From an uncultured Massilimicrobiota sp. (GTDB lineage Bacteria; Bacillota_I; Bacilli_A; Erysipelotrichales; Coprobacillaceae), in assembly GCA_944325245.1 (NCBI GenBank), contig CALUZM010000007.1, forward strand, positions 1 through 59,466: a stretch of 59,466 nt of DNA, in the 5' to 3' direction. Position numbers and translations under genes: made by a program. The notes under the pieces were generated by a model. That model was given only the letters and a program-made list of their open reading frames with translations, was not told where the DNA came from and made no database searches. The first letter of the stretch is position 1. Every line of letters begins with the position of its first letter. Of the stretch, positions 126 through 41,040 are shown in pieces.

Positions 126-956
126 CTACTGAACTGTACTTGATAAAATTCTTTCTAAATGCAATGCTAAATATCCAACTTCTGTTTCTGGCATCTCTTT
201 TTTGAGTATTTTTGATAATGAATGACACATATGTTGTGCCTGCTGATAGGCAAAAGGAAACTTGTCTTTCGTAAATTCACTAATATCCATTTGGAGTTTC
301 TCACCTGTATTAATACGCACAATCAAGAACTTGATATGATTCATCAATCTGGCATAAGAAATAGAATGAACATCTATGACAATATTTAAATCTTTTTGTA
401 ATTGTAAGATTTGTTCGTGAATAATACGTGTTGCTTCCATGGATTCAACAACTTTATTTGTTGATACCGCAGAATGCACATGTAATGTAATAAATCCTAC
501 TTCATCATCATTAATCATTTGAGATGTATATTGAAAAATAATGTCTCTTGCTTCTTGTGCAACTTCATATTCATCAGGGAATAACAACTGAATATCGTAA
601 TGAAATGGATTGGATGGTAAAATATTCTCTTTCATACGTTTCATTGTAAAAAAGATATGGTCTGCTAGTGGTAATAAAATATTGTAATCTATTTTTGCAA
701 ATCTGGCTTCAGCTTTTTTTAAAATTTCATCTGCTATTTCTAAATATATCGGATCAATATATTCAATAATATTTTGAAAATGATCTTTTGACTGATAAGT
801 TTTTTGCATCAGATATTTTTTAGCCTGTGGTGGTATTTCCAAACATTCACCAGCCTTTTTACCAAAACCAATTCCCTTAAACATGACAATGATTTCTTCA
901 TGATCATGCTTGGCTAAAACAGTGTTATTATTCAGCACTTTTATAATTGTATACAT
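126..956 (-). CDS. BglG/LicT-family transcriptional antiterminator (CAT-RBD + 2 PRD)
   Basis: This RNA-binding antiterminator should stabilise a RAT hairpin in the leader of a sugar operon when its PTS regulation domains are in the right phosphorylation state. Residues 1-55 look like the CAT RNA-binding domain (start MYTIIKVLNNN, later FKGIGFGKK). PRD1 spans about 65-170 with His100 and His159, and PRD2 about 172-276 with His207 (RLMNHIKF) and His266 (LALHLERI). The length (276 aa) is normal for the family. It follows ptsG by only 12 bases, so it is cotranscribed and is probably a GlcT/LicT-type regulator. The ptsG leader appears too short to hold a RAT and terminator, so its target may lie elsewhere. 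The family call is firm; the regulated operon is not known. Confidence 0.9.
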   Translation of the reverse strand: MYTIIKVLNNNTVLAKHDHEEIIVMFKGIGFGKKAGECLEIPPQAKKYLMQKTYQSKDHFQNIIEYIDPIYLEIADEILKKAEARFAKIDYNILLPLADHIFFTMKRMKENILPSNPFHYDIQLLFPDEYEVAQEARDIIFQYTSQMINDDEVGFITLHVHSAVSTNKVVESMEATRIIHEQILQLQKDLNIVIDVHSISYARLMNHIKFLIVRINTGEKLQMDISEFTKDKFPFAYQQAQHMCHSLSKILKKEMPETEVGYLALHLERILSSTVQ

Positions 957-968
957 CCTTCTCTTCCC

Positions 969-3059
969 CTAATCGTAAATCTCTAGAACTTTTGTTCCTT
1001 GTTGCATATACCCATAAGACTTTTTCAAAGTCGTTTCTTCAGGTGATTGGGTCACAACCAGCATAATATTGGCATCAGTCGCATGAGCTTGAATATATGC
1101 TAAATCTGCCTGCCACAAAACATCTCCTGTTTTGACTTTTTGATGCAGTTCGACCATCACTTGATATCCTTCACCTTTTAAGTTAACGGTATTCGTACCA
1201 AAATGCAATAAAATTTCAATATCATCATCTCTTTTTATGCCGATAGCATGCTTTGTTGGATAAATCATTGATATTTCACCATCACAAGGTGCCACAATTG
1301 TCCCATTATCTGGTTGAATCATAATGCCATCACCTAAAAGTTTATGTGAAAAAATATCATCAGCCGCCTCTTCTATTGGTAAGACTTCGCCGTCAACAAC
1401 ATTTTTTAATTCTATCTTATTTTGAGAATAAGAAATACTCTTTTCTTCATAATCATATTTTTCAGGGACATGTGCCAGATATTCATCAAGTTTGGTCTTG
1501 ATGGAAGAAGCCTTAGGTCCATAAATAATCTGAATACTATCTCCCTGTAACATCACAGCCGCTGCTCCTGCCTGTTTTAACAATGCTTCATTGACCTTAT
1601 CACGATCATAAATGGTTGCTCTTAAACGTGTAATACAACAATCCAAATCCTCAAAATTATGTCGACCACCTAATCCTTTAATGATTTGCTGACATTGTGA
1701 ATCAAGATATGATTTATCAAAAGAATAATCATATTGAGGCTTTTTGAAGATTGTTAATTTTTGATTATCTTCACGTCCAGGTGTTTTTAAATCAAATTTC
1801 AAAATACAAAAACGAAAACTCAAATAATACAATAAAAAATAAACCACACCAAAGACAATAACCAATATCCAATGTGTTTTATCATTACCCTGTAAAACAC
1901 CAAAAACAAGAAAATCAATGCTGCTGGCAGAAAAAGTAAATCCAATCGCAATCTTAAAAACATGCGCAACAACAAAGGTTGTGGCCGCTAAAAAGACATG
2001 TAATCCAAATAAGAGTGGTGCCGCAAAGACAAATGTGAATTCAATCGGTTCTGTAATTCCTGTCAAAAAACTTGTTAAAGCACCTGAAAGCAAAAGACTC
2101 CCAACAACCTTTTTAGATTCAGGCTTAGCACAATGATACATAGCTAAGGCAGCCCCAGGCAAACCAAACATCATCAAAATAAATTCACCAGAAAAATATC
2201 TTGTCGCTTCACTACTGAAATGTGTTAATGTTGGATCAGATAACTGGGCAAAGAAGATATTTTGTGCCCCTTCAACCAGCGTGCCATTGACCATCATGGA
2301 ACCACCAATAGCGGTCTGATAAAATGGCATATAAAAAACATGATGCAATCCAAATGGTACCAAAGCTCTTTTGAAAATACCATAAATAAAAGTCCCGAAA
2401 TATCCTGAATTTGCTATGAACTGTCCTAAACTAAATATACCTGATTGAATGATGGGCCAGATATAAAACATCATAACCCCAACAAGTAAATAGACAATAG
2501 CTGCAATAATAGGGACAAATCTTTCACCCTCAAAAAATGAAAAAATATCAGGTAATTGAATATTATAAAAACGATTATGCAAAAAACTTACTCCCAATCC
2601 AACAATAATGCCACCGAAGACTCCCATCTGTAAAGAAAGAATTCCACAAACATTGGCAATACTTCCAGTTAGAACATTTTGTACAATCTGATTATTTTCG
2701 ATAACACCTGTTAAAGTTAACATCCCATTAATACTGGCATGCATCACAAAGAAAGCGATAATAGATGATAAGGCAGCAACTTCTTTGGCCTTTTTCGCCA
2801 TTCCCAAAGCAACGGATGCTGCAAACAGTAATGGAATATTTTCAAATAAAACATTCCCTACACCTTTTAACAATAATAAGAAACCGTGAAGAAATGTGCC
2901 ATCACCTAAGATCCATTCTAAATGTAATGAAGCTATTGTTGTAGGATTGGTGAGTGAACTTCCTACTCCTAAAAACAATCCTGCGATCGGCAATACAGCA
3001 ATAGGTAACATCAAACAACGACCAATTCTTTGTAATAGACTAAAAATGCCTTTTTTCAT
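969..3059 (-). CDS. ptsG: PTS glucose-family EIICBA permease
   Basis: This is a membrane sugar permease that phosphorylates its substrate during uptake. Domain order is IIC (about 1-430, multi-pass, with the glucose-family signature GITEPIEF), IIB (about 450-540, active Cys in DCCITRLR) and IIA (about 565-690, His in PTKHAIGIK and in LLHFGTNTV). I start it at the ATG at 3059, preceded by AGGA/AAAGGG. An upstream in-frame GTG at 3080 has only a weak ribosome site. 696 aa is a normal length for a CBA fusion. Glucose is the likely substrate, but N-acetylglucosamine or maltose-type members look alike. It is transcribed from its own promoter and runs into the antiterminator gene. Confidence 0.88.
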   Translation of the reverse strand: MKKGIFSLLQRIGRCLMLPIAVLPIAGLFLGVGSSLTNPTTIASLHLEWILGDGTFLHGFLLLLKGVGNVLFENIPLLFAASVALGMAKKAKEVAALSSIIAFFVMHASINGMLTLTGVIENNQIVQNVLTGSIANVCGILSLQMGVFGGIIVGLGVSFLHNRFYNIQLPDIFSFFEGERFVPIIAAIVYLLVGVMMFYIWPIIQSGIFSLGQFIANSGYFGTFIYGIFKRALVPFGLHHVFYMPFYQTAIGGSMMVNGTLVEGAQNIFFAQLSDPTLTHFSSEATRYFSGEFILMMFGLPGAALAMYHCAKPESKKVVGSLLLSGALTSFLTGITEPIEFTFVFAAPLLFGLHVFLAATTFVVAHVFKIAIGFTFSASSIDFLVFGVLQGNDKTHWILVIVFGVVYFLLYYLSFRFCILKFDLKTPGREDNQKLTIFKKPQYDYSFDKSYLDSQCQQIIKGLGGRHNFEDLDCCITRLRATIYDRDKVNEALLKQAGAAAVMLQGDSIQIIYGPKASSIKTKLDEYLAHVPEKYDYEEKSISYSQNKIELKNVVDGEVLPIEEAADDIFSHKLLGDGIMIQPDNGTIVAPCDGEISMIYPTKHAIGIKRDDDIEILLHFGTNTVNLKGEGYQVMVELHQKVKTGDVLWQADLAYIQAHATDANIMLVVTQSPEETTLKKSYGYMQQGTKVLEIYD

Positions 3060-3094
3060 ATTTCCTAACCCTTTCTTCACTATTCTCTTTTGAT

Positions 3095-3123
3095 ATTGTA
3101 AAGAATATACAAAGAAATGTCTA
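3095..3123 (-). promoter_or_regulatory. ptsG promoter
   Basis: Minus strand: -35 TAGACA (3118-3123), 17-base spacer, -10 TACAAT (3095-3100). Each box matches consensus at five of six positions. The predicted leader is only about 30 bases long, leaving no room for an antitermination hairpin. Confidence 0.65.
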
Positions 3124-3133
3124 TAAAACTTTC

Positions 3134-3166
3134 AAAAAAAGGAAAGACTTATATATCAGCCTTTCC
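3134..3166 (-). terminator. Terminator after enolase
   Basis: Stem GGAAAG (minus) pairs with CTTTCC and is followed by seven T. It lies just past the eno stop and just upstream of the ptsG promoter, so eno and ptsG are separate units unless there is read-through. Confidence 0.8.
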
Positions 3167-3179
3167 ACTTCATTTGTTA

Positions 3180-4534
<1,355 letters not shown>

Positions 4535-6364: not shown

Positions 6365-7256
6365 ATCTATTCACTGAAGATGCAATTTTATGATATGTCC
6401 AACGTTTACCTCTAATCGCAACAGATAATGCCATAATATTTTCAGGTAAAGCAATACCACACCAACCAGCATCACCAATATGTTGAATATCAATACCACA
6501 ACGTTTATTAACCAAAGCAATTTGTCTAATTGTTCCTTCATCACTACCTTCTTGAGAAGTTCCAATAGAACTTAATGATAAAGCACCTTTCGATTTAATT
6601 AATTTACAAGCAGCAGTGACTTCTTCTTCTGATAAACCAGGTACCGTATAAACAGCAGGCATTAAAATAATATCAGCACCTGCATCAATAAATCTTTCAA
6701 TGCTATCTAAATCAACTAAAGCCTCATCAATTCCTGAAGAATGCATCTTACCAGCAATAATCATTCCACCAAAGTATTCTTTCGCAAGTTTAATAGCATT
6801 TTCAATAGATGCATTACTTACACCAGTTCCTGGATTTCCAGTTAAACAAATAAAATCAAAACCTAATTCCTTAGCTTTTATGAACGTTTCTTTTGTTGCA
6901 TGACGTCCACTAGAAATTTCTAATCTGTTTTCCATCATTTTTGCATTTTCATCAATTGGTTCAAGATTACATCCCACTGGTCTACCAATTAATTTCTTTA
7001 ATAATTTCACAGGTTCATCTGTTTCAGGTAAACCATTGATATGAGGATGATTACAATCAAAAACATTTAACAAAACCATATCACTTCCAAAAGAAACTGC
7101 CAATTCAGCATTTGTTAAATCACCAAGTAAAGGTGGACAAGCAACAACAGTTTCTGTCATAATTGTTCTTCCTTCACTCGCTAAAATAGATTGTTTCAAT
7201 TCATCTTTATTCATTGATAACATTTCACTTGTTGTACAATTTAATAATCTTTTCAT
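6363..7256 (-). CDS. TIM-barrel-like protein of unknown function (DUF7916-like)
   Basis: A 297-aa soluble protein I cannot assign to a reaction. Alternating strand-helix segments and the phrases ICLTGNPGTGV, GMIIAGKMH, AGADIILMPAVYTVPG and IQHIGDAGW look like a TIM barrel with phosphate-binding loops, as in PEP-mutase or aldolase relatives. I recall similar proteins near PTS genes, now called DUF7916, but this is from memory. The ribosome site is AGGAGG, nine bases before the ATG. It has a near-consensus promoter overlapped by a cre-like sequence and sits next to pckA, so a role in carbon metabolism under catabolite control is plausible. No frameshift is seen. Confidence 0.6.
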   Translation of the reverse strand: MKRLLNCTTSEMLSMNKDELKQSILASEGRTIMTETVVACPPLLGDLTNAELAVSFGSDMVLLNVFDCNHPHINGLPETDEPVKLLKKLIGRPVGCNLEPIDENAKMMENRLEISSGRHATKETFIKAKELGFDFICLTGNPGTGVSNASIENAIKLAKEYFGGMIIAGKMHSSGIDEALVDLDSIERFIDAGADIILMPAVYTVPGLSEEEVTAACKLIKSKGALSLSSIGTSQEGSDEGTIRQIALVNKRCGIDIQHIGDAGWCGIALPENIMALSVAIRGKRWTYHKIASSVNR

Positions 7257-7278
7257 TTCCCGTATCCTCCTGTGAAAT

Positions 7279-7307
7279 ATTATATCGCTATATTATAACG
7301 CTTTCAA
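7279..7307 (-). promoter_or_regulatory. Strong sigma-A promoter of the TIM-barrel-like gene
   Basis: -35 TTGAAA (7302-7307), 17-base spacer, -10 TATAAT (7279-7284) on the minus strand. It fits in the 55-base gap after the second ABC gene, so the TIM-barrel-like gene is an independent unit. Confidence 0.8.
7292..7307. promoter_or_regulatory. cre-like site (CcpA) across the -35/spacer
   Basis: Minus-strand TTGAAAGCGTTATAAT matches the cre consensus WTGNNARCGNWWWCAW except one position (A for C). It covers the -35 box and part of the spacer, a position where CcpA binding would repress. Confidence 0.55.
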
Positions 7308-7311
7308 CATA

Positions 7312-9126
7312 TTAATTCCTAAAGATTTTTTCAGGATTTAAATTCTTCACTATAACACAGGATAGAAGACAAGAACTTAATAAAGATAATCCATAAATGA
7401 AACATAAAATCCTAATCATCTCTAACGATTGTATGTTAAGAATCCAAGATAGTAGCAATACCAATATCAAAGATAAAACCATCTTCAACAATTGATCGAT
7501 ATTTAAAATATATATAAATTCATTAAACATAACCCCATTTGCTTTAAGAATAGTTAATTCCTTTTCACGTCTTTTCAATGACCAATAACACATATAAGCA
7601 AAAATCAAAGCAAACAATATAATGGTAATGTATTTTTCCATTGTGTACATACGAATTGTGTCACTTTTCGTATTCATTAATAAATTAACATCTTGAAATG
7701 CATCATTAATATTCACATTTTCACTATAATTCTTGATATACTCTTCAACTGAAACAAGCGAGTCGATATTCTCACAAAATATCACATAGGCACTTTTTAC
7801 TGGTTGTACTCCTCCCTGTGTTGCCAAAATTTCCATATCCTCATAATTCATCAACATATAATCCAATGAACGATCGTAGGCTACATTCATTCCTATTGAT
7901 AGAATTCCACTAACTGGAATTTGTTGAATAACCTTTGTTTCATTATTAAAAATAAATTCTGATAAATGATAATCATTTTTATCATTAAGTAATTGATAAA
8001 TACTGTGATAAGAAGGATAAAGGTGTCTATCTTCCTGAATTGTTTGAAATAATTTCCCATTTAACTGATTTTCAGGATATAGAGGATAAACAGGAATTTG
8101 ACGACTATCTACTTGAACTGATAAATCATAGAAAGGATAAACCCTTTTCACTCCTAAGTGATTTTGAATACCTTCTATGAAATCTTGTGATAAAGGGGAC
8201 GCTTTATTATAAACTCCTAATTTCTGTGCTACATCATTACTTTCAATCATGATTTGAAAATCTGATAAACGACTCATCTGATAATCAATTCCAACCTGTG
8301 CCTGATCTATAGATTTTTGAATAATGAATGTCCCTAAACTTCCTAAAGTCAAAACAATAATCATAAAAATATTTATCAATCTTTCATTTTGAAAACAATG
8401 TTTTAAATAATACAAAAGAAAACGTACTTGCTGATGTTTTGACTTTTGTATGAACATTATCGGGTCATCTTGACATTCTTTTTTTAATACTATTCCTTGC
8501 TCATTCATTTCATAAATACAATCGGCGTATTCTTTAGCTATATAGCTATGACTTGCTACAATAATCGTACAATTTTCTGTTTTTAATAAGTCTTTTAATA
8601 ACTGAAAAATTTCTCTTTCATTTATTTCATCTAAAGCACTTGTCGGTTCGTCTAAAATCAAAATTTCTGGTTTTTTCAGCAAAGCACAGGCAATCGCTAA
8701 TCTTTGTTTTTCACCTCCTGATAAAGTCATAACCTTTTGATTAAAATCATGATAAAGATGCACCTTATCTAACAACGGCCTCATTGCAGCTTGCTCAAAA
8801 GGTTCACCACTTAAATAACTATAATATTTTAAACATTCAGTTACAGTCATGTTTTCAAGCAATCCATAATCCTGAAAAACATATCCAATAGAATATCTTC
8901 TTAATTTTGTCTGTTGACGACGACTAAGAGTTATGAAATCCTGTTTATGATACATATAATGATAATCTTGGTCATATGAAATCAAGCCTAATTTATATAA
9001 TAAAGTTGTTTTCCCACTTCCACTTAAACCTTGAATAAAGGTTAAATGATGTTCAGGAATCAATAAACTTTGTTTTTTTACTTTCTTTGATGTATAACGT
9101 GTCGACACATGCGTTAGTTCAATCAT
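7312..9126 (-). CDS. ABC transporter, ATPase fused to FtsX-like permease (second of pair)
   Basis: N-terminal ATPase: Walker A GLSGSGKTT (33-41), signature LSGGEKQ (135-141), Walker B ILILDE (155-160), H-loop His193. A first membrane helix near 255-275 is followed by a large extracytoplasmic region of about 240 residues and three C-terminal helices, the MacB/FtsX layout. Such proteins usually drive peptide or antibiotic efflux or envelope mechanotransmission rather than uptake. I start it at the ATG at 9126 (604 aa), with GGGAGGG upstream and ATGA overlap with the preceding ABC gene, so the two are translationally coupled and probably form a heterodimer. No terminator follows before the next promoter. 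The substrate is unknown; self-immunity or export for the small secreted protein upstream is an inference. Confidence 0.85.
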   Translation of the reverse strand: MIELTHVSTRYTSKKVKKQSLLIPEHHLTFIQGLSGSGKTTLLYKLGLISYDQDYHYMYHKQDFITLSRRQQTKLRRYSIGYVFQDYGLLENMTVTECLKYYSYLSGEPFEQAAMRPLLDKVHLYHDFNQKVMTLSGGEKQRLAIACALLKKPEILILDEPTSALDEINEREIFQLLKDLLKTENCTIIVASHSYIAKEYADCIYEMNEQGIVLKKECQDDPIMFIQKSKHQQVRFLLYYLKHCFQNERLINIFMIIVLTLGSLGTFIIQKSIDQAQVGIDYQMSRLSDFQIMIESNDVAQKLGVYNKASPLSQDFIEGIQNHLGVKRVYPFYDLSVQVDSRQIPVYPLYPENQLNGKLFQTIQEDRHLYPSYHSIYQLLNDKNDYHLSEFIFNNETKVIQQIPVSGILSIGMNVAYDRSLDYMLMNYEDMEILATQGGVQPVKSAYVIFCENIDSLVSVEEYIKNYSENVNINDAFQDVNLLMNTKSDTIRMYTMEKYITIILFALIFAYMCYWSLKRREKELTILKANGVMFNEFIYILNIDQLLKMVLSLILVLLLSWILNIQSLEMIRILCFIYGLSLLSSCLLSCVIVKNLNPEKIFRN

Positions 9127-11117
9127 CTTTTTACCCTCCCTAACACAATCATTGGTATACCTACTTCTATACATAAACTGAGTACAATACAAAAGACAAA
9201 GAATGATGGTCGAATAATAAAGACTTCATTATACATCAAAGCAAAAAATACATATGCAATAACAAACATAAAAACAATAGATAAAACCATACATATGAAA
9301 CTTTCATATAAAAAATAAATACCTAGTATTTTTTTTGCAAAAGAAACTGTAAAACCACATCTTGTAAAAAAATGAATAAAATCAACATCATCTTGTCTTT
9401 GATTATACTTAACTCCAAAAAACAACATTAACACAACAAACATAATCAAACCTGAAATCATAAAAATACTTTCATTTAATTGTTTCACAACATCTACTTT
9501 TGTATAAATATCATAATAGTCAGATGATACTTTAAATCCTTGGGCTTCAATATCTTCTTTTGCCTCATTAAAATCATATCCATCTTCAACAACAAACTGA
9601 TAGTAATTAGGATAATAAGGTTGAGCATCTTCGGGAATAGAATGCATGAGTGTCGTTTGATATTTTTCTATAACACCTAATGGACAAAATAGGTCCACAT
9701 TCATATTATTGATTGGTGCCATTTTCAAAGGATATGTAGAATCTACAATTCCTTTAATTTTCATTTTTAAAATAATTGTCTGATAATGAATTTCTTCCAT
9801 TTCATTTTCTATTGTACGATACACTGGTATCGTCACTGGAAATTCTATTTCTGTATTTTCATTGACCTCTTGGCAAATATTTTTTAAAGTTTCCTCACCT
9901 ATAAGAGTACGATCTTCAAATAAATTTCCAGTTTTTAAGTAATATAAAAGTGGTAACGAAATATAAATTCCCTCTTCATTATCTATGGTTTTCTCAACAT
10001 AATCCATTTTATATTGAAAGTTTTCATTATATGTTGCCCATCCAAATGTTCCTAGTGTCATTTCTCGACGATCTTCTATTTGACCATCTTGATATAACTT
10101 TAAATTTAAATCATCCAAATTCTCATCTAGATGTTCTGTCAAATATTCATCTAGAATAAATGGCCATGTTTTGACATGAGATAGCTTCTTAACACTTTTA
10201 ATTTCTTCACCAATAGAAGGTGGAATTGGAGTTAATTGAATATATTCACGATAGAACACTCCACCCTTATCTAATAATGCTAATTGATCTATATATTTTT
10301 GAATAACTGATTGTCCATATAAAACAGAAAAACTACATAAACCAATAGATAACGAAGTCAAACAAACCATGATGATTTTTAACAATTTTCTATGCTCAAA
10401 CATTTTATATAAATATTGAGTATAGTGTTTTGGAGAAGCTATTGATGATATTCCTTTCTTTTCTATAATTTGTGGAGAATTTATCACATATTGTGTTAAC
10501 TTCTGATTCTCAATCTGATAAACAATATCAGCTTCTTTTTTAATTAAAGCATCATGAGTAAAAATAATGACTGTATGGCCCTGATGAGCATAATCCTTTA
10601 ATAATTCTACAATTAACTGTGTATGATGTTTATCTAATGATGCCGTTGGTTCATCAAAAACAAGTATTTCAGGTTGATGAATTAAGGCTAATAAAATACT
10701 CACCCTGATTTTCTCTCCACCCGACAGCTGTTGAGGATAAAGTGAATAAGTATGCTTTATTTCTAACTGCTCTGCTATTTCATCAATATCATATCCATGA
10801 GATAACGATTGACATAATCCTATATGATCCTTTATTTTTAAATCATTAATAAATGCAGGAATCTGATCCACAATTCCCATATGTGTTAGAATAAATTCCT
10901 GTTGTTGATTCATATTTAAATCAGTTATATTTTCATTATTATAATAATATTCATAGGTTCCTGTTCTTTGAAAAGTCAACAACTCATGCAGCGTGGATTT
11001 TCCACTACCACTCTTACCTATAACTACTGTTAATTCATGATCTTGAGCACAAAAATATGCATGATTATAAACAACATGTTCATTATAATAAACACAAATA
11101 TTCTTCATTTCTAACAT
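9123..11117 (-). CDS. ABC transporter, ATPase fused to FtsX-like permease (first of pair)
   Basis: N-terminal ATPase: Walker A GKSGSGKST (34-42), Q-loop Gln85, signature LSGGEKI (131-137), Walker B ILVFDE (151-156). One membrane helix near 245-267, an extracytoplasmic domain of about 270 residues, then three helices at the C-terminus (about 540, 590 and 640). The ATG at 11117 has AGGTGAG at good spacing; a GTG at 11126 overlaps that site and is less likely. It is 664 aa. It shares architecture with the next gene but the two are clearly diverged in sequence, as expected for the two halves of a heterodimer. A hairpin with a T-run separates it from the secreted-protein gene, so its level is probably set by read-through. 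Confidence 0.85.
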   Translation of the reverse strand: MLEMKNICVYYNEHVVYNHAYFCAQDHELTVVIGKSGSGKSTLHELLTFQRTGTYEYYYNNENITDLNMNQQQEFILTHMGIVDQIPAFINDLKIKDHIGLCQSLSHGYDIDEIAEQLEIKHTYSLYPQQLSGGEKIRVSILLALIHQPEILVFDEPTASLDKHHTQLIVELLKDYAHQGHTVIIFTHDALIKKEADIVYQIENQKLTQYVINSPQIIEKKGISSIASPKHYTQYLYKMFEHRKLLKIIMVCLTSLSIGLCSFSVLYGQSVIQKYIDQLALLDKGGVFYREYIQLTPIPPSIGEEIKSVKKLSHVKTWPFILDEYLTEHLDENLDDLNLKLYQDGQIEDRREMTLGTFGWATYNENFQYKMDYVEKTIDNEEGIYISLPLLYYLKTGNLFEDRTLIGEETLKNICQEVNENTEIEFPVTIPVYRTIENEMEEIHYQTIILKMKIKGIVDSTYPLKMAPINNMNVDLFCPLGVIEKYQTTLMHSIPEDAQPYYPNYYQFVVEDGYDFNEAKEDIEAQGFKVSSDYYDIYTKVDVVKQLNESIFMISGLIMFVVLMLFFGVKYNQRQDDVDFIHFFTRCGFTVSFAKKILGIYFLYESFICMVLSIVFMFVIAYVFFALMYNEVFIIRPSFFVFCIVLSLCIEVGIPMIVLGRVKR

Positions 11118-11163
11118 TAATCTCACCTACTACCCCTAAAAATATCACGTCTAATAAATATGG

Positions 11164-11191
11164 AAAAAAGATGAATAAAATTCATCTTTTT
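11164..11191 (-). terminator. Terminator between secreted-protein gene and ABC pair
   Basis: Minus strand: AAAAAGATGAA pairs with TTCATCTTTTT around a 5-base loop and runs into T's. It starts 4 bases past the stop of the small secreted protein. Likely an attenuating terminator that lets the small protein be made in excess over the transporter. Confidence 0.7.
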
Positions 11192-11194
11192 AGG

Positions 11195-11605
11195 TTAATT
11201 GAAATCATACATCACTAAAGAAGTAGTGTATACAATTTGAGGTGGGATAGTAGCAAATTGGGCTTTTGCTTTCCAATTCACAGAAATCACCAAACCACTA
11301 GAAGCTTTGTTTACCACTGTTGCACTCACTTTTGTTGTACCAATGGACTTACTTGTAGCAGTCAATTTGTATGAATCAATGGTATATTTTCCATTAACAT
11401 ATCTAAGAGTAGCTGTACATTTCGTATTTAGAGTTCCAATTTGTTTCCCTGATGCATTTTTTACAGGAATAGCTTTAGTTATTTCCTCTTCAAAAATCTG
11501 TGCTCTTGGTTCTACAATATTTTCTGTCGATAAAGCATGAGCATTTGCACAAACACCTCCCAAAACTAACACTGCCGTCAAAAAACTAGTTAATAATTTT
11601 TTCAT
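11195..11605 (-). CDS. Small secreted protein, bacteriocin-like candidate
   Basis: 136 aa with a clear Sec signal peptide: MKKLL, a hydrophobic core to about residue 19, and A-H-A at 22-24 as the cleavage site. That leaves a mature protein of about 112 residues, rich in Thr, Ser, Val and Lys and probably all-beta, with one Cys and one Trp (VNWKAKA). I do not recognise the family. The stretch SATVVN, the later Trp and the aromatic C-terminus recall lactococcin 972-type bacteriocins, but the resemblance is short and may be chance. The ATG at 11605 has AAGGAGAA upstream; an alternative start six codons earlier lacks a site. It sits between a LytTR two-component system and a MacB-like ABC pair, the place of a regulated exported effector. 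Confidence 0.6.
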   Translation of the reverse strand: MKKLLTSFLTAVLVLGGVCANAHALSTENIVEPRAQIFEEEITKAIPVKNASGKQIGTLNTKCTATLRYVNGKYTIDSYKLTATSKSIGTTKVSATVVNKASSGLVISVNWKAKAQFATIPPQIVYTTSLVMYDFN

Positions 11606-11697
11606 AATGTTCTCCTTTCCCAAATTATTTTAATGATGTACATAGACAAAATTTAGCAAATATCGAATATTTATAATACTTAAACTTTTAGTAATTA

Positions 11698-11726
11698 AAT
11701 ATATAATTTATTCTAACAACTGTCTA
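11698..11726 (-). promoter_or_regulatory. Probable promoter of the secreted-protein gene
   Basis: -35 TAGACA (11721-11726), 17-base spacer, -10 TATATT (11698-11703) on the minus strand, about 90 bases before the start codon. ACAGTTG overlaps the -35 box and resembles half of a LytTR/AgrA binding repeat; the second half is not clear. This is the longest non-coding stretch in the module (11606-11821). Confidence 0.5.
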
Positions 11727-11821
11727 TATAATGTCTTTTTCATCTTGTGGTAATTATATAATAAAGGAGACAATTTTTATATCAATTAAGGACAAAGCGT
11801 TTATTTCAAGGATAAATCGCA

Positions 11822-13030
11822 TCACTCCCCTAATAAAGAAGTTTTGATAATAAAAGTTTTATCATCATAATCAATATCTAAAGTTCCATGATATTGATTA
11901 ACAATTCTACGAATACTTTTGAGTCCATACCCATGGTATTTTTTATCTTTTTTGGTTTTTAAAGTTTGATCAAATGATTGGTCTATATCATTTTCCACTT
12001 GAACATGTAATATTTGTTGTTCATAAACGATATTCACTTTTATCAATCCGTTTTGGGGACAATTTTCTATCGCATTATCTAGTATATTAGATAACAAATC
12101 ATTTAAAACATAATCTTGAATAGATAATTGTTGAGGAACATTAATCAAACACTCCACTCTTATATGTTTCATATCAGCATTAATGATTTTATTATTGATA
12201 ATGGTATTAATCAGTTGATTTCTTGTTTTAACTAATACAGGTATTGATGAAATAAGATTATTATGATTATTGATTAATTCTTTAATTTTCGGATAATCTT
12301 TCTGATTCAAATAATAATTAATTAATTGATAGTCATGTTTCAAATCATGTTTTGTCATCTTTAATTGTTCATATATATGAAGCAAAGCCTGTTCATTCTT
12401 TTGTTCTTGTTTTAATTTTTCATATTTTTCTTTTTTATTGTTTAAATCAAAAAGATAAAACAGGAGTATAAATACACCAAATAAACAAAATAACAGTATT
12501 CCAAACATTTTCATCAATTCAGGAGTATGAGATTTAAAAACAAGATACTCCTGTGTAAATTGTAATGACACACAATATAAACCTAATAAAACAACAGTCA
12601 AAATATAATAATTCATTTGTTGAAAAGAAAGACGGATTGTTTTTAATTTTTTCAAAAATAATAAACCAAATAATAAATAGAAAATCTTTGTATAATAGTC
12701 ATTTAATTCTACTAAAAATAATTCATCAATAAACAACAACAGTATATTCATTGTTAAGCTATAAACACTTTCCAAAATCACAACAAATAATATTTCACTT
12801 TTTCTATTATGAGTAAAGATGCATCCTAACACAAAGTTTAGAAAAATAAATATGTACGACAATGAAATACCAGAAAAATCAATGAATCCATATATTGTAA
12901 CAATACCAACATTAATCATGACCATTAAAATTCTATAAAGCCAACACATATTTTTCCTAATATCTAACAAATAAGTAATAAACCATGTCTGTAATAATGA
13001 ACTTATAATATTTAACCCTAACCATGCCAT
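11822..13030 (-). CDS. AgrC-like sensor histidine kinase
   Basis: 402 aa. Five to six hydrophobic segments fill residues 1-195, followed by a coiled linker and a phosphoacceptor region KHDLKHDYQLI (His228 or His232, the HDxxxH style of peptide-sensing GHKL kinases). The ATPase core has the N box NLLSNILDNAIEN (about 310-325) and the glycine motif GYGLKSIRRIV (about 370). It overlaps the end of the response regulator gene by 13 bases and has AGGAGT upstream, so it is translationally coupled. AgrC relatives sense secreted peptides, but no agrB/agrD-like gene is visible here, so the ligand may be another peptide or an envelope signal. The family call is firm; the signal is unknown. Confidence 0.88.
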   Translation of the reverse strand: MAWLGLNIISSLLQTWFITYLLDIRKNMCWLYRILMVMINVGIVTIYGFIDFSGISLSYIFIFLNFVLGCIFTHNRKSEILFVVILESVYSLTMNILLLFIDELFLVELNDYYTKIFYLLFGLLFLKKLKTIRLSFQQMNYYILTVVLLGLYCVSLQFTQEYLVFKSHTPELMKMFGILLFCLFGVFILLFYLFDLNNKKEKYEKLKQEQKNEQALLHIYEQLKMTKHDLKHDYQLINYYLNQKDYPKIKELINNHNNLISSIPVLVKTRNQLINTIINNKIINADMKHIRVECLINVPQQLSIQDYVLNDLLSNILDNAIENCPQNGLIKVNIVYEQQILHVQVENDIDQSFDQTLKTKKDKKYHGYGLKSIRRIVNQYHGTLDIDYDDKTFIIKTSLLGE

Positions 13031-13713
13031 ATATATTGACTCCTATGTTGCATATATCTTTGCATAAATGGTTTCTTGCTGCCACGTGTAAACGGAATGA
13101 TTATATTATACGAGAGCATTATATCCTTCTTTTCCACTTTTACTACAGAATCCAAATTAATGATTATGTGACTATTTAATTTATAGAATCTACAATGATT
13201 AAGTTGTTGATAGGTTTGTTTGAGTGTTTGATATGTTGTATAACTTTTTGTTGGAGTCAATATGCGAATTTGATTACGTGATGATTCAATATAAATAATA
13301 TCTTTCTGCTTGATAGAAACACTCATTCCATTCACAACTACAGAAATATGTTCTCCGTCTTGAAGTATTATCTTTTTATATTTATTCACAAAATGATCAT
13401 AATCTTCATCAAAATGTGATTTTCTGATAAAGAAGAATGTATTTTGTTGAAAACTTTCATAAACAAAGTGATCAACACTAGATATATAAACAATGATTGC
13501 ATGGGGATATAACTTTGATATATTCATTCCATATTCAAAGCTCTCTCCTTCCTTCAACATAACGTCAAGAAATATACATTGATATTCTTTAGTGTAAATA
13601 TCATCACAAAAAGAATCATACATATCAATTTGTATATCTTGAAATGTATGATTTAAATGTGCTTTTAATTGTTCTATAAATATATGATCATCATCTACAA
13701 TAACACACTTCAT
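13018..13713 (-). CDS. LytTR-family response regulator (AgrA-like)
   Basis: 231 aa. Receiver domain at 1-120 with acidic pocket Asp7-Asp9, phosphoacceptor Asp50 (CIFLDVML) and Lys98. LytTR DNA-binding domain at about 130-231 (KDIIYIESSRNQIRI, FYKLNSHIIINL). I start it at the ATG at 13713, preceded by AGGAGGA; the reading frame extends 16 codons upstream without a ribosome site. First gene of the unit with the kinase. A weak promoter, TATGAT with a poor -35, can be drawn near 13745. By family it should bind paired direct repeats upstream of its targets, the obvious one being the secreted-protein gene. Confidence 0.9.
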   Translation of the reverse strand: MKCVIVDDDHIFIEQLKAHLNHTFQDIQIDMYDSFCDDIYTKEYQCIFLDVMLKEGESFEYGMNISKLYPHAIIVYISSVDHFVYESFQQNTFFFIRKSHFDEDYDHFVNKYKKIILQDGEHISVVVNGMSVSIKQKDIIYIESSRNQIRILTPTKSYTTYQTLKQTYQQLNHCRFYKLNSHIIINLDSVVKVEKKDIMLSYNIIIPFTRGSKKPFMQRYMQHRSQYIWHG

Positions 13714-13779
13714 AAACAATCCTCCTAATATTCTTATTGTATCATAGTTTCCCATTATCAAAAAACAATAATTTTCATA

Positions 13780-13803
13780 GAAAAACTAGGCATAAAGCCT
13801 AGT
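13780..13803 (-). terminator. Terminator after the P-type ATPase
   Basis: Perfect 7-bp stem ACTAGGC/GCCTAGT with a 5-base loop and five T on the minus strand, overlapping the end of the ATPase gene. Confidence 0.8.
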
Positions 13804-16120
13804 CTTGAGGATGTGTATCTAAATAATGTATCACAATCTTTGAGAGACATGTTGAAACAATCAGTCCAAAGATAAGTGACATAATAATATATTGGAATAG
13901 CATTGTTGTGACTGGAGCTAATTGTAATAAGTCATATGTGATATAAGAAACCAATACAAAGGCTGCAATATCAACAATTAAGACAACGCTACGATAAAGA
14001 TTAATTGGACTATAGATACGATAGATCATATGGATTGAAAGAATTGCAGTTGTATAATAAAGAATTGTAAACATTTGATTTAATGAAAGTGACAAACTTG
14101 GAGTTAAGAGTCTTAATGTGATGACACATAGGACAATCGCTATAGCATTAGGAAATGAATAACGAAGTGTATAGCGACCAATTGTTTCTTTTTGTTTAGA
14201 AATATTCTTTTCAAATAAAATCATAAATGATGGAAAACCTTCAACGAAGTTATCTAGCAATGTCATTTGAAAAGGAATAAATGGATAAGGCATGTTTAAA
14301 AGAATACATATGATAGATATCAGAATCGTATAAATTGTTTTTAAATAGTACATCGAAGCAGAACGCGTCACATTATTAATATCTAAACGTCCTTCTTTTA
14401 CAACATCTACCATTGTAGATAATTCACCATTGATAACAACAAATTGAGAAATTTGTTTAGCTGCATCTGACCCTGATCCCATGGCAATAGACACATCTGC
14501 ATCTTTCAAAGCTAAAACGTCATTTACACCATCACCTGTCATTGCTACTTTCTGTTTATGTTTTTGTAAACACAGTATCATTTCATGTTTTTGTGAAGGT
14601 GAAGCTCGACCAATAACATGATAATTTAAAATTGCATTCTCTATTTCTTCAGGTGTAGAGATTGTCGATGCATCAATATAATGATCAGCATTTTCGATAC
14701 CTGCCTGCATAGCCAGTGCACTCACTGTAATAGGATTATCACCAGATATAACTTTGACATCAACATCATTATCTTTAAAGAATTGAATGGTTTCTCTAGC
14801 ATCCACTCTTAATGGATCTAAAATCACAATAACCGCTAAAGCAACAGATTGATTAAGAGTTTGTTGAAAAGTCTCAAAATCATCATGTCTAGCAACCATA
14901 AGAACTCTTGCACCATGATGTTTTGCTTCTTCTACAGCTTCCGGTAAAACGAAGTCAGGTAAAATCACTTCAGGTGCACCAACAATAATGGTTCCTACAT
15001 TTTCTAATTCTAAAGCACTCCATTTTCTAGCCGAAGAAAAAGAAACTCTTCTTAATGTTGAATAAGGTGCATCACCTTGAAAATAATCATTTAAAGTTAA
15101 AAATGTCGCATTGTTGTCTAGACTTCCTTTCACAAAAGAATTCATAATCCAAGAAAACTGTTCGTTCCATGGATTATCAAAAGTATAAACATCTTGAACC
15201 TGCATTTTTCCTTGCGTTAATGTTCCTGTTTTATCCAGACATAAGACATCAACACGAGATAGCGTTTCAATACTATACATTTCCTGTACAAGAACTTTAC
15301 GTTTTCCTAACCTAACAACACTAGTTGCAAGAGAAACACTTGTTAGTAAAACAAGTCCTACTGGCAACATTCCTAGCAATGCTGTTGAAGTGTTCACAAC
15401 AGTTGTTTTTAATGATTCATCTCTTATACCCATAGCCTGATAAAGCATACAAATACTAATCGGTATTACAAGCATACTCGTAAAACGTGTGACTTTTTTA
15501 AAGACTTTCACCAGTTCAGAAGTAACAGGTTTTCTGTTTCTCGCTTCATTGGCAATTTTAGTTGCATAATTATCTATTCCGACATGTTCAACACAGGCAT
15601 GACAAGCCCCTGAGACAATAAAACTTCCTGATAGTAAATAATCACCTACATCTTTTAAAACAGGATCAGCTTCCCCTGTTAGCAATGATTCATCCACTTC
15701 TACTTGAGTATCTAAAACAATACAATCCGATGAAATCTGCTGCCCTGTTTCTAAAAAGACAACATCATTTAAAACAATATCCTCGTTTTCAATTTCCTGA
15801 ATCTGTCCATCACGTAAAACCTTTGTTTTTGGCGAAATAATCAAATTCAAACGTGCAACCATATTACGTGAACGTATATCCTGATAAATATGAATGACTA
15901 TATTCATAGTGACTATCAGCACAAAAAATAAGCTTGACCATGCCTGAACATAGATCAAAGCACATGCAATCACAAAATTATATGCATTAAAAAGTGTGAA
16001 CACATGTTCACAAAAAATCTGAAAATTTGTTTTCACCAATGGTTTTGGTGATATATTGACATGTCCTAATCGGACTTGTTCTTTCACTTGTTGACTCGTT
16101 AATCCCTTCACTTCGTTCAT
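13799..16120 (-). CDS. Cation-transporting P-type ATPase (CtpE/Exp7-like)
   Basis: An ion pump of the plasma membrane. Actuator motif LTGEADP (about 149-155), phosphorylation motif DKTGTLT (about 299), MTGDGVNDVLALKDADV hinge motif (about 530), and ten hydrophobic segments (four before the catalytic loop half, six at the C-terminus). The membrane-4 motif reads LPVGL where Ca-type pumps have PEGL and heavy-metal pumps have CPC; there are no N-terminal metal-binding domains. This fits the poorly characterised CtpE/Exp7 group, for which calcium has been proposed. The ATG at 16120 with GGGTGAT is preferred over one four codons earlier. 773 aa. Confidence 0.85.
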   Translation of the reverse strand: MNEVKGLTSQQVKEQVRLGHVNISPKPLVKTNFQIFCEHVFTLFNAYNFVIACALIYVQAWSSLFFVLIVTMNIVIHIYQDIRSRNMVARLNLIISPKTKVLRDGQIQEIENEDIVLNDVVFLETGQQISSDCIVLDTQVEVDESLLTGEADPVLKDVGDYLLSGSFIVSGACHACVEHVGIDNYATKIANEARNRKPVTSELVKVFKKVTRFTSMLVIPISICMLYQAMGIRDESLKTTVVNTSTALLGMLPVGLVLLTSVSLATSVVRLGKRKVLVQEMYSIETLSRVDVLCLDKTGTLTQGKMQVQDVYTFDNPWNEQFSWIMNSFVKGSLDNNATFLTLNDYFQGDAPYSTLRRVSFSSARKWSALELENVGTIIVGAPEVILPDFVLPEAVEEAKHHGARVLMVARHDDFETFQQTLNQSVALAVIVILDPLRVDARETIQFFKDNDVDVKVISGDNPITVSALAMQAGIENADHYIDASTISTPEEIENAILNYHVIGRASPSQKHEMILCLQKHKQKVAMTGDGVNDVLALKDADVSIAMGSGSDAAKQISQFVVINGELSTMVDVVKEGRLDINNVTRSASMYYLKTIYTILISIICILLNMPYPFIPFQMTLLDNFVEGFPSFMILFEKNISKQKETIGRYTLRYSFPNAIAIVLCVITLRLLTPSLSLSLNQMFTILYYTTAILSIHMIYRIYSPINLYRSVVLIVDIAAFVLVSYITYDLLQLAPVTTMLFQYIIMSLIFGLIVSTCLSKIVIHYLDTHPQD

Positions 16121-39330: not shown

Positions 39331-41040
39331 TTATAAAGTTTTTTTCTTTTTGAACATAATTCCTAAAGTCAATAAAGCAAATAGAGAAAGAACCAGATAT
39401 GGCCACATCACTGTCAAATCATCTGTTTGAACAGGTTGTGATTGTACAGATGAAGTAGGAGGTGTCTGTTGTGATTCCTGATTATTTTCTGGTGTCTGAT
39501 CATCTGTTGACTGATGAGGAGGTGTTATTTCTACCTCTTCTTTGACTTCATAAGACACAATAGGTTTAGGAAATTCCATTTCTCCCTGGGTACCATCACT
39601 TGACTCATAAGCCAAGGTTGCTTTTTCATTGGTATATGTTTCATATATGCCTGCATTCGTTTCTTTGTGAGTCAAAGATAAAACATATGACAATTCAAGA
39701 GCCTGCCCTTTTTGAAGAGGTGTTTGAATATCTAAAACAAGTTGTTCCTGATCATGACTTTGATAGTGAATCTGATATTGGTCTTCAAAAGATATTGTAT
39801 TTCCCTGAATTGTTCCTTTTAATACTTTTTCGCCAACGCTTAATGTCACTGTACTTAAATTCTTTAAATCAAAATCATCACCAATGATGTCTGTGATACT
39901 ACCAGCTTTCATAGCATATAAAATATCACTTTTCACATTATCAAACATACCTGATACATCTGTTGGAATAACTTCTGACTGTCCTCCAATCTGACTCAAG
40001 TTTTCTACATATCGGCACCATGCGTAACTATCATAATATCTTGTATTGGCATAGGCATACCCATGATATTTTGTTGTAATATCACGCCATGCTGTGACAG
40101 CCTGATAAACGGCTGCATCATTTGCAGAAGCATGTTGATTTAAATCTTCAACTGCGACATACTCTCCTTCTTCAAAGCCCGCTTCTTGATAAGTGCTGTT
40201 AGTATATACCGTTCCTGCATCCGATGTATATGCCCCTAACTGATAGACATGCTGATACTGCTTTATATCTGATGTGATGCTTTCACCATATGTCTGATAC
40301 CACGTTGCAATGTTCTGAAATTCTTCATAATATGTCTGAGCTGCTTCTTTTCGTTGCGCTTCTGTCATATTCATATAATCACGACCTGCATGATGTGCTG
40401 ACATCATATCATTACCAGCAAGAATCTGGCCCTGTGTATTGACACCATTGCCCGGAAAAGCACTTTCACTATAGATAGACATAATATCATTTTCATTTTG
40501 CCCATCACCCCACAGATAAGTCACACCATCCGTCACCAAAACAAGATGTTTATTGTTGGAAGAAGTCTGTGTATCTGCATCCAGCATTGCTTCACCTTTT
40601 TTAAGCCCAGCATAAATATTTGTCCCACTTTCCAGTTTCTGGTCAATTGCTTTTTTCATGCGATCAATATTGTCTGCTGTCAATTTTGTTAAAGCAAGAC
40701 TCGTACTATCAGTCGCATTCTTATTAAAAAGAACAACACCTACTTGAATGATATTGCCTTTATTGGCCTGCACTAATAATTCATCAAGCATCTTTTTAGC
40801 TTCGTTTCTTACATCAACACTTGTTGATTTATCTAATACAAAGACAACATCTGAATAAGTCTTTTCTTCATTTCCACTCATCCTCAATTGAACAGTTGTT
40901 TCATCATCTTCATTGAGTTGTGTCGCTGTTTTATCAAGTTTAATATCTTGGATAGAATTTGCAGCATAAACATTCATCAATGATGAACATATCAACATCA
41001 ATGACATAGCAGCTGTTATCATTTTCCTTGTATATTTCAT
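39331..41040 (-). CDS. VWA-domain surface protein
   Basis: 569 aa. Signal peptide (MKYTRKMITAAMSL to AYA), VWA domain with MIDAS motif DKSTS (about 73), then a beta-rich region and a Pro/Gln/Thr-rich spacer. The C-terminus has a hydrophobic helix (LVLSLFALLTLGIMF) and KKKK, like a sortase anchor, but the expected LPxTG or xxTGD motif reads VQTDD. It may be a plain membrane anchor or a degenerate sorting signal. Probably adhesion-like. Own ribosome site AAGGAGA. Confidence 0.85.
   Translation of the reverse strand: MKYTRKMITAAMSLMLICSSLMNVYAANSIQDIKLDKTATQLNEDDETTVQLRMSGNEEKTYSDVVFVLDKSTSVDVRNEAKKMLDELLVQANKGNIIQVGVVLFNKNATDSTSLALTKLTADNIDRMKKAIDQKLESGTNIYAGLKKGEAMLDADTQTSSNNKHLVLVTDGVTYLWGDGQNENDIMSIYSESAFPGNGVNTQGQILAGNDMMSAHHAGRDYMNMTEAQRKEAAQTYYEEFQNIATWYQTYGESITSDIKQYQHVYQLGAYTSDAGTVYTNSTYQEAGFEEGEYVAVEDLNQHASANDAAVYQAVTAWRDITTKYHGYAYANTRYYDSYAWCRYVENLSQIGGQSEVIPTDVSGMFDNVKSDILYAMKAGSITDIIGDDFDLKNLSTVTLSVGEKVLKGTIQGNTISFEDQYQIHYQSHDQEQLVLDIQTPLQKGQALELSYVLSLTHKETNAGIYETYTNEKATLAYESSDGTQGEMEFPKPIVSYEVKEEVEITPPHQSTDDQTPENNQESQQTPPTSSVQSQPVQTDDLTVMWPYLVLSLFALLTLGIMFKKKKTL

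Follow-up and report, generated by a model that had tools for sequence, protein, structure and literature searches.

The window, a stretch of 59,466 nucleotides from an uncultured Massilimicrobiota sp., carries a cassette that is probably bacteriocin-like, with a Sec-exported putative antibacterial protein switched by a LytTR regulator and a paired ABC pump serving as immunity. Five genes on the minus strand make up the cassette, in the order LytTR response regulator, GHKL kinase, 136-aa secreted protein, ABC2 and ABC1 (Table 1). The same genes, on one strand and in this order, had been proposed in the initial annotation and were confirmed by the open reading frame coordinates and Pfam domains. 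There is an overlap of 13 bp between the regulator and kinase genes, and one of 4 bp between ABC2 and ABC1; the regulator was taken to start at the ATG at 13713, within a longest open reading frame that begins at 13761. The genes on either side of the cassette encode a DUF7916 protein and a P-type ATPase, and the G+C fraction is 0.256-0.288 at positions 8001-14000 vs 0.31-0.37 on both flanks. Elsewhere in the window, the surface-type protein encoded at 39331-41040 begins with a signal peptide, ends in a membrane anchor at its C terminus and contains a region that looks von Willebrand-like by eye.

Table 1. Genes and candidate signals of the cassette, with positions in the window
Feature	Position	Strand	Evidence
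LytTR response regulator, 231 aa	13018..13713	-	Pfam LytTR 3.2e-12; Response_reg 1.5e-5, under cut-off
AgrC-like GHKL histidine kinase, 402 aa, about 5 TM segments	11822..13030	-	PF14501 (HATPase_c_5) 1.4e-20; TM scan
Candidate LytTR direct repeat CGATTTATCCTT / CGCTTTGTCCTT	11788..11819	-	20-bp period; just after kinase stop
Candidate promoter TTGATA-16-TATTAT	11758..11785	-	10/12 consensus positions; just downstream of repeat
Small Sec-type secreted protein, 136 aa, candidate effector	11195..11605	-	ORF; predicted all-beta
Predicted signal peptide MKKLLTSFLTAVLVLGGVCANAHA	11534..11605	-	Hydrophobic segment 4-22; AHA site at residue 24 by eye
Hairpin between small gene and ABC2	11165..11191	-	12-bp AT-rich stem + T run; -15.0 kcal/mol, z -2.2
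ABC2, ATPase fused to MacB/FtsX-type permease, 664 aa	9123..11117	-	ABC_tran 3.8e-20; TM 248, 551, 607, 641; Foldseek MacB E 5e-11
ABC1, ATPase fused to MacB/FtsX-type permease, 604 aa	7312..9126	-	ABC_tran 5.5e-23; TM 251, 499, 547, 575

The secreted protein, the pump and their transcription signals

The 136-aa protein has a single N-terminal hydrophobic segment by TM scan and no visible anchor or sorting motif; its predicted mature form is of about 112 aa with a pI of 9.6. Searches with the window protein against Pfam (E up to 1), NCBIfam and PDB sequences gave no significant match, and those against viral contigs, genome contigs and plasmids gave no usable one; judged by sequence, the protein matches no known family. 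Matches in other genomes of the order at E-values of 4e-4 to 0.04 were partial, many falling within long frames or interrupted by stop codons, and they were disregarded. The sole match kept was a decayed gene of Longibaculum muris (E 9e-7), which was also the only small protein to which the window protein aligned with confidence. A single-sequence structure model was all-beta at low confidence (pLDDT 60); with this query the best fold match was listerial lmo2686 (4k15, Z 6.3), followed by a Bacteroides two-domain protein (Z 5.3), both scores being at background level, and no lactococcin 972 structure was among the matches of the same low-confidence model.

ABC1 and ABC2 are alike in layout: in each, the ATPase is N-terminal and the TM scan places a first TM segment after it, separated by some 230-280 residues from three further ones, which is the arrangement of MacB-type (type VII) proteins: ATPase, TM1, large extracellular domain, TM2-4. 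The FtsX type earlier assigned to both permeases is based on their four TM segments, the first of which is followed by a large loop, and on how the ABC2 model folds; the Pfam FtsX domain was not significant in ABC1 (E 0.83 and 0.26) and gave no match in ABC2. The best PDB matches of the ABC2 AlphaFold2 model, whose permease part was of medium confidence and whose ATPase part was poor, were MacB (E 5e-11), LolCDE and BceAB. The best NCBIfam match of both ATPases was TIGR03608 (lactococcin 972 export family), at 154.6 and 116.2 bits and so under the cut-off of 254.85, and the TIGR01654 permease model matched neither window permease region. A plasmid search with ABC2 returned nothing at E 1e-25. 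The substrates of MacB-type pumps are commonly located within the membrane or outside it, which would suit an immunity role. The initial annotation had left open whether the pump serves export or immunity of an exported effector; immunity to an exported effector remains the preferred interpretation, while pump-driven export appears unlikely and unnecessary because the small protein has its own Sec signal.

LytTR regulators have been reported to bind direct repeats 11-13 bp apart, located just upstream of the -35 element (PMC6193735). The direct repeat that follows the kinase stop codon was found with the same period and in the same place in Massilimicrobiota timonensis and on L. muris contig C18 (loci L059 and L061), and it is regarded as a candidate LytTR site only, because each repeat alone was reached by shuffled sequences. 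Promoter-like sites in the region around the adjacent candidate promoter were not above shuffle level. The hairpin between the small gene and ABC2 is likely a partial terminator. Hairpins with stems of at least 10 bp also follow the small gene at eight related loci (L058, L067, L116, L111, L109, L141, L117, and L152), and no clear hairpin was found at this position in L068, L108, L115, L139, and L142. A hairpin after the small gene fits a structural gene that would be expressed in excess over the pump.

Optional presence and recurrence of the cassette

The cassette is absent from three genomes of the same genus (G001, G003, and G004), in which only about 75 to 205 bp lie between the two flanking genes. 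One of these, G003, is the nearest genome by its neighbouring P-type ATPase (90% identity), yet it is without the cassette. A separate observation in G004, a single-contig genome, is a PEP carboxykinase gene split over several frames (L063, 5871-7470), perhaps by sequencing error. M. timonensis An13 (G002) carries regulator, kinase, ABC2, and ABC1 at the same site at 67-76% identity; only 74 bp separate its kinase from ABC2, and therefore it has no small gene there. The cassette is therefore optional and is gained or lost as a unit, and inside it the small gene is optional too. L. muris (G022) was found to carry (i) on contig C18, a four-gene cassette with no small gene; and (ii) on contig C34 (L058), ABC2-ABC1 immediately preceded by a small-gene remnant that is 45-48% identical over about residues 35-81 and broken in frame. 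The C34 pump is accompanied by an OmpR-type two-component system and by a 416-aa HTH-TPR regulator (7204-8454, RRNPP-like by eye) upstream of the decayed gene and pump; regulators are thus swapped between the loci of these pumps. The five genes had been expected to co-occur in related genomes. This held for four of them, found together in three genomes, and not for the small gene, which is absent or decayed in both of the genomes that, besides that of the window, have close versions. Its loss with retention of the pump is the pattern expected of a toxin-immunity pair, as in streptococcin B.

Related pumps were surveyed with a profile of the ABC2 permease region, which matched in 27 of 316 genomes of the order and in one genome only outside it, among 395 of the class. 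Pumps with at least 500 bp of upstream sequence were counted (n = 44), their loci having been selected by the pump and not by the small gene, and a small gene was scored as a Sec-type open reading frame of 65-200 aa on the same strand and no more than 300 bp upstream. By this measure 14 of the 44 pumps had a small Sec-type gene directly upstream, vs 9 of 259 other genes of at least 200 aa in the same stretches (odds ratio 13; Fisher p = 8e-8, an approximate value since the Sec test was a simple hydropathy rule of our own and the genes are not fully independent); no such gene was detected upstream of the other 30 pumps. This enrichment, together with the recurrence of the regulator-kinase-ABC2-ABC1 set in three genomes, bears out the earlier view of the five genes as one module. 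Five of the small proteins form an alignable core (L067, L116, L139, L141, and L142) and two others a second pair (L115 and L068). Membership of the window protein in the core group was considered and rejected as too weak (hhalign 15.2 vs a maximum of 14.8 in 40 shuffles). None of 15 small proteins, that of the window included, had a significant Pfam match, nor did the core group have one in NCBIfam; most of the mature proteins are basic (pI 8-10). A subset of the pumps (L105, L103, and L098, in G002 and G011) has PadR-like regulators (by eye) in place of LytTR systems, and at L105 a 149-aa secreted protein is encoded beyond the PadR-like regulator and pump.

Genes of agr type were found at several of these loci. 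An agrB gene (PF04647) lies within a few kb at L067, L116, L111, L136, and L141, each with a LytTR regulator and GHKL kinase, and agrD-like open reading frames were recognised by their tail motif in L116, L136, and L111 and by eye in L067 and L141. At L136 the small secreted gene comes after agrD and not before the pump. Three of these loci (L067, L116, and L136) are separate agr-type loci of one genome, G232, with related pumps and small secreted proteins, and L067 holds three ABC2-type genes in one cluster. The presence of agrB and agrD-like genes near the small secreted gene and pump at the five loci indicates that the pump family includes the quorum layout, and the earlier view that the module departs from quorum layouts in kind is not supported. 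The narrower statement that agrB and agrD are lacking at the module itself stands: the window module has the LytTR regulator and GHKL kinase of an agr system, neither agrB nor agrD adjoins it, and a single agrB was detected elsewhere in the genome, on a different contig and next to a LytTR regulator of its own. Furthermore, at L119 (G348, 220-3180) a PF09683 lactococcin 972-family gene and a TIGR01654-type permease (84.2 bits, under the cut-off, in a partial gene) directly follow an agrD-like open reading frame and agrB. The same plan thus exists with a known bacteriocin family and, as read from its genes, L119 is a link between agr signalling and the lactococcin 972 family.

Comparison with known systems and alternative readings

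The window module shares with lactococcin 972 (lcn972-orf2-orf3) and streptococcin B (scbABC) a leader peptide and a small unmodified product (PMC11796350, PMC4055356), as well as a downstream membrane ABC pair as putative immunity. Downstream of lcn972 lie two genes for a putative ABC-type immunity function (PMC4055356), and scbABC is controlled at its promoter by ComE, a LytTR regulator (PMC11796350); the window module would share such LytTR control. Retention of the pump where the toxin gene is lost is a further shared feature: for streptococcin B, 27.5% of 571 genomes keep only scbBC (PMC11796350). Unlike lactococcin 972, the window has two ATPase-permease fusions rather than a separate ATPase and TIGR01654 permease, its small protein matches neither PF09683 nor TIGR01653, and no PF09683 match was found in the genome. 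A further mark of the lactococcin 972 family is inhibition of septum formation through lipid II binding. With TIGR01654 also unmatched and TIGR03608 under its cut-off, assignment of the module to the lactococcin 972 family was rejected; on present evidence it would work like the lactococcin 972 and streptococcin B systems while falling outside their family models.

Other systems share parts of this plan. The LytTR regulator and AgrC-like GHKL kinase resemble those of agrBDCA, as do the related loci with agrB and agrD-like genes, but neither gene adjoins the window module. The permease is MacB-like with a large extracellular domain, as in MacB/LolCDE (type VII) and BceAB; unlike in these, two different ATPase-permease fusions lie side by side, with no adjoining MacA gene. 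BceB, with its ten TM segments, works with an ATPase encoded separately (BceA), and the window module differs from a BceAB module in its fusions, its four TM segments per protein and its LytTR/GHKL regulators. In class II bacteriocin regulons (blp, com, and pln) a LytTR/GHKL pair controls exported antimicrobials with their immunity, which the window would resemble with its putative antimicrobial; class II precursors, however, have double-glycine leaders and peptidase ABC exporters, and the window protein has a Sec signal with no peptidase ABC exporter. No modification enzyme, as a RiPP system would need, was found among the five module genes and the two immediate neighbours.

Three other readings of the cassette were weighed. 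An unlikely one is a detoxification module, in which the kinase would sense foreign antimicrobial peptides and the pump remove them in the manner of BceRS-BceAB, the secreted protein being a later, optional passenger or decoy. The two genomes in which regulator, kinase, and pump form a set that lacks the small gene speak for it, as do the match of the ABC2 permease model to BceAB among others and the OmpR-type system beside the C34 pump of L. muris; but small Sec-type genes are found ahead of such pumps much more often than ahead of other genes, the one at this position in L. muris has decayed, and the combination of LytTR/GHKL and agrB belongs to quorum systems rather than to the usual Bce layout. 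It is improbable that the protein belongs to the cell surface or matrix and is produced through LytTR regulation when density is high, with the pump for envelope maintenance. The all-beta model and its weak fold matches to lmo2686 and the Bacteroides protein point in this direction, yet those scores are at background level, the protein lacks a visible anchor or sorting motif, and the disappearance of the small gene from loci that retain the pump is more in keeping with an effector. Slightly more improbable still is that the protein is the signal itself, or an extracellular sensing partner of the kinase or pump; its gene does sit between those of kinase and pump with no adjoining agrBD, but kinase and pump persist without it, and related loci have an agrD-like gene in addition to a separate small protein.

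For the preferred reading, that of an exported effector with an immunity pump, we infer the following mechanism. The GHKL kinase would sense an extracellular signal and phosphorylate the LytTR regulator, which would activate the promoter lying in the gap between kinase and small gene. Export of the 136-aa precursor by the Sec pathway would be accompanied by cleavage, and the resulting basic, beta-rich product of about 12 kDa may act on the envelope of related bacteria. The hairpin after the small gene would let some transcripts reach ABC2-ABC1, leaving the effector in excess over the pump. ABC1 and ABC2 would form a heterodimeric MacB-type pump that strips the envelope of the producer of the effector, or releases the effector's target, and thereby confers self-immunity.

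A literature search returned no report of a bacteriocin from Massilimicrobiota and, to our knowledge, the bacteriocins of gut Erysipelotrichales are barely described. Beyond the window, it is plausible, though here we are more tentative, that in gut Erysipelotrichales a hitherto undescribed set of sequence-divergent, Sec-secreted, beta-rich bacteriocins is exchanged before a conserved heterodimeric MacB-type immunity pump, with control by LytTR or agr systems. Natural experiments are offered by the genomes that keep the pump but have lost the toxin gene and by those whose site is empty. If this is so, a single pump profile would reveal many unknown antibacterial proteins in gut genomes, and those proteins would be tied to agr-type signalling.
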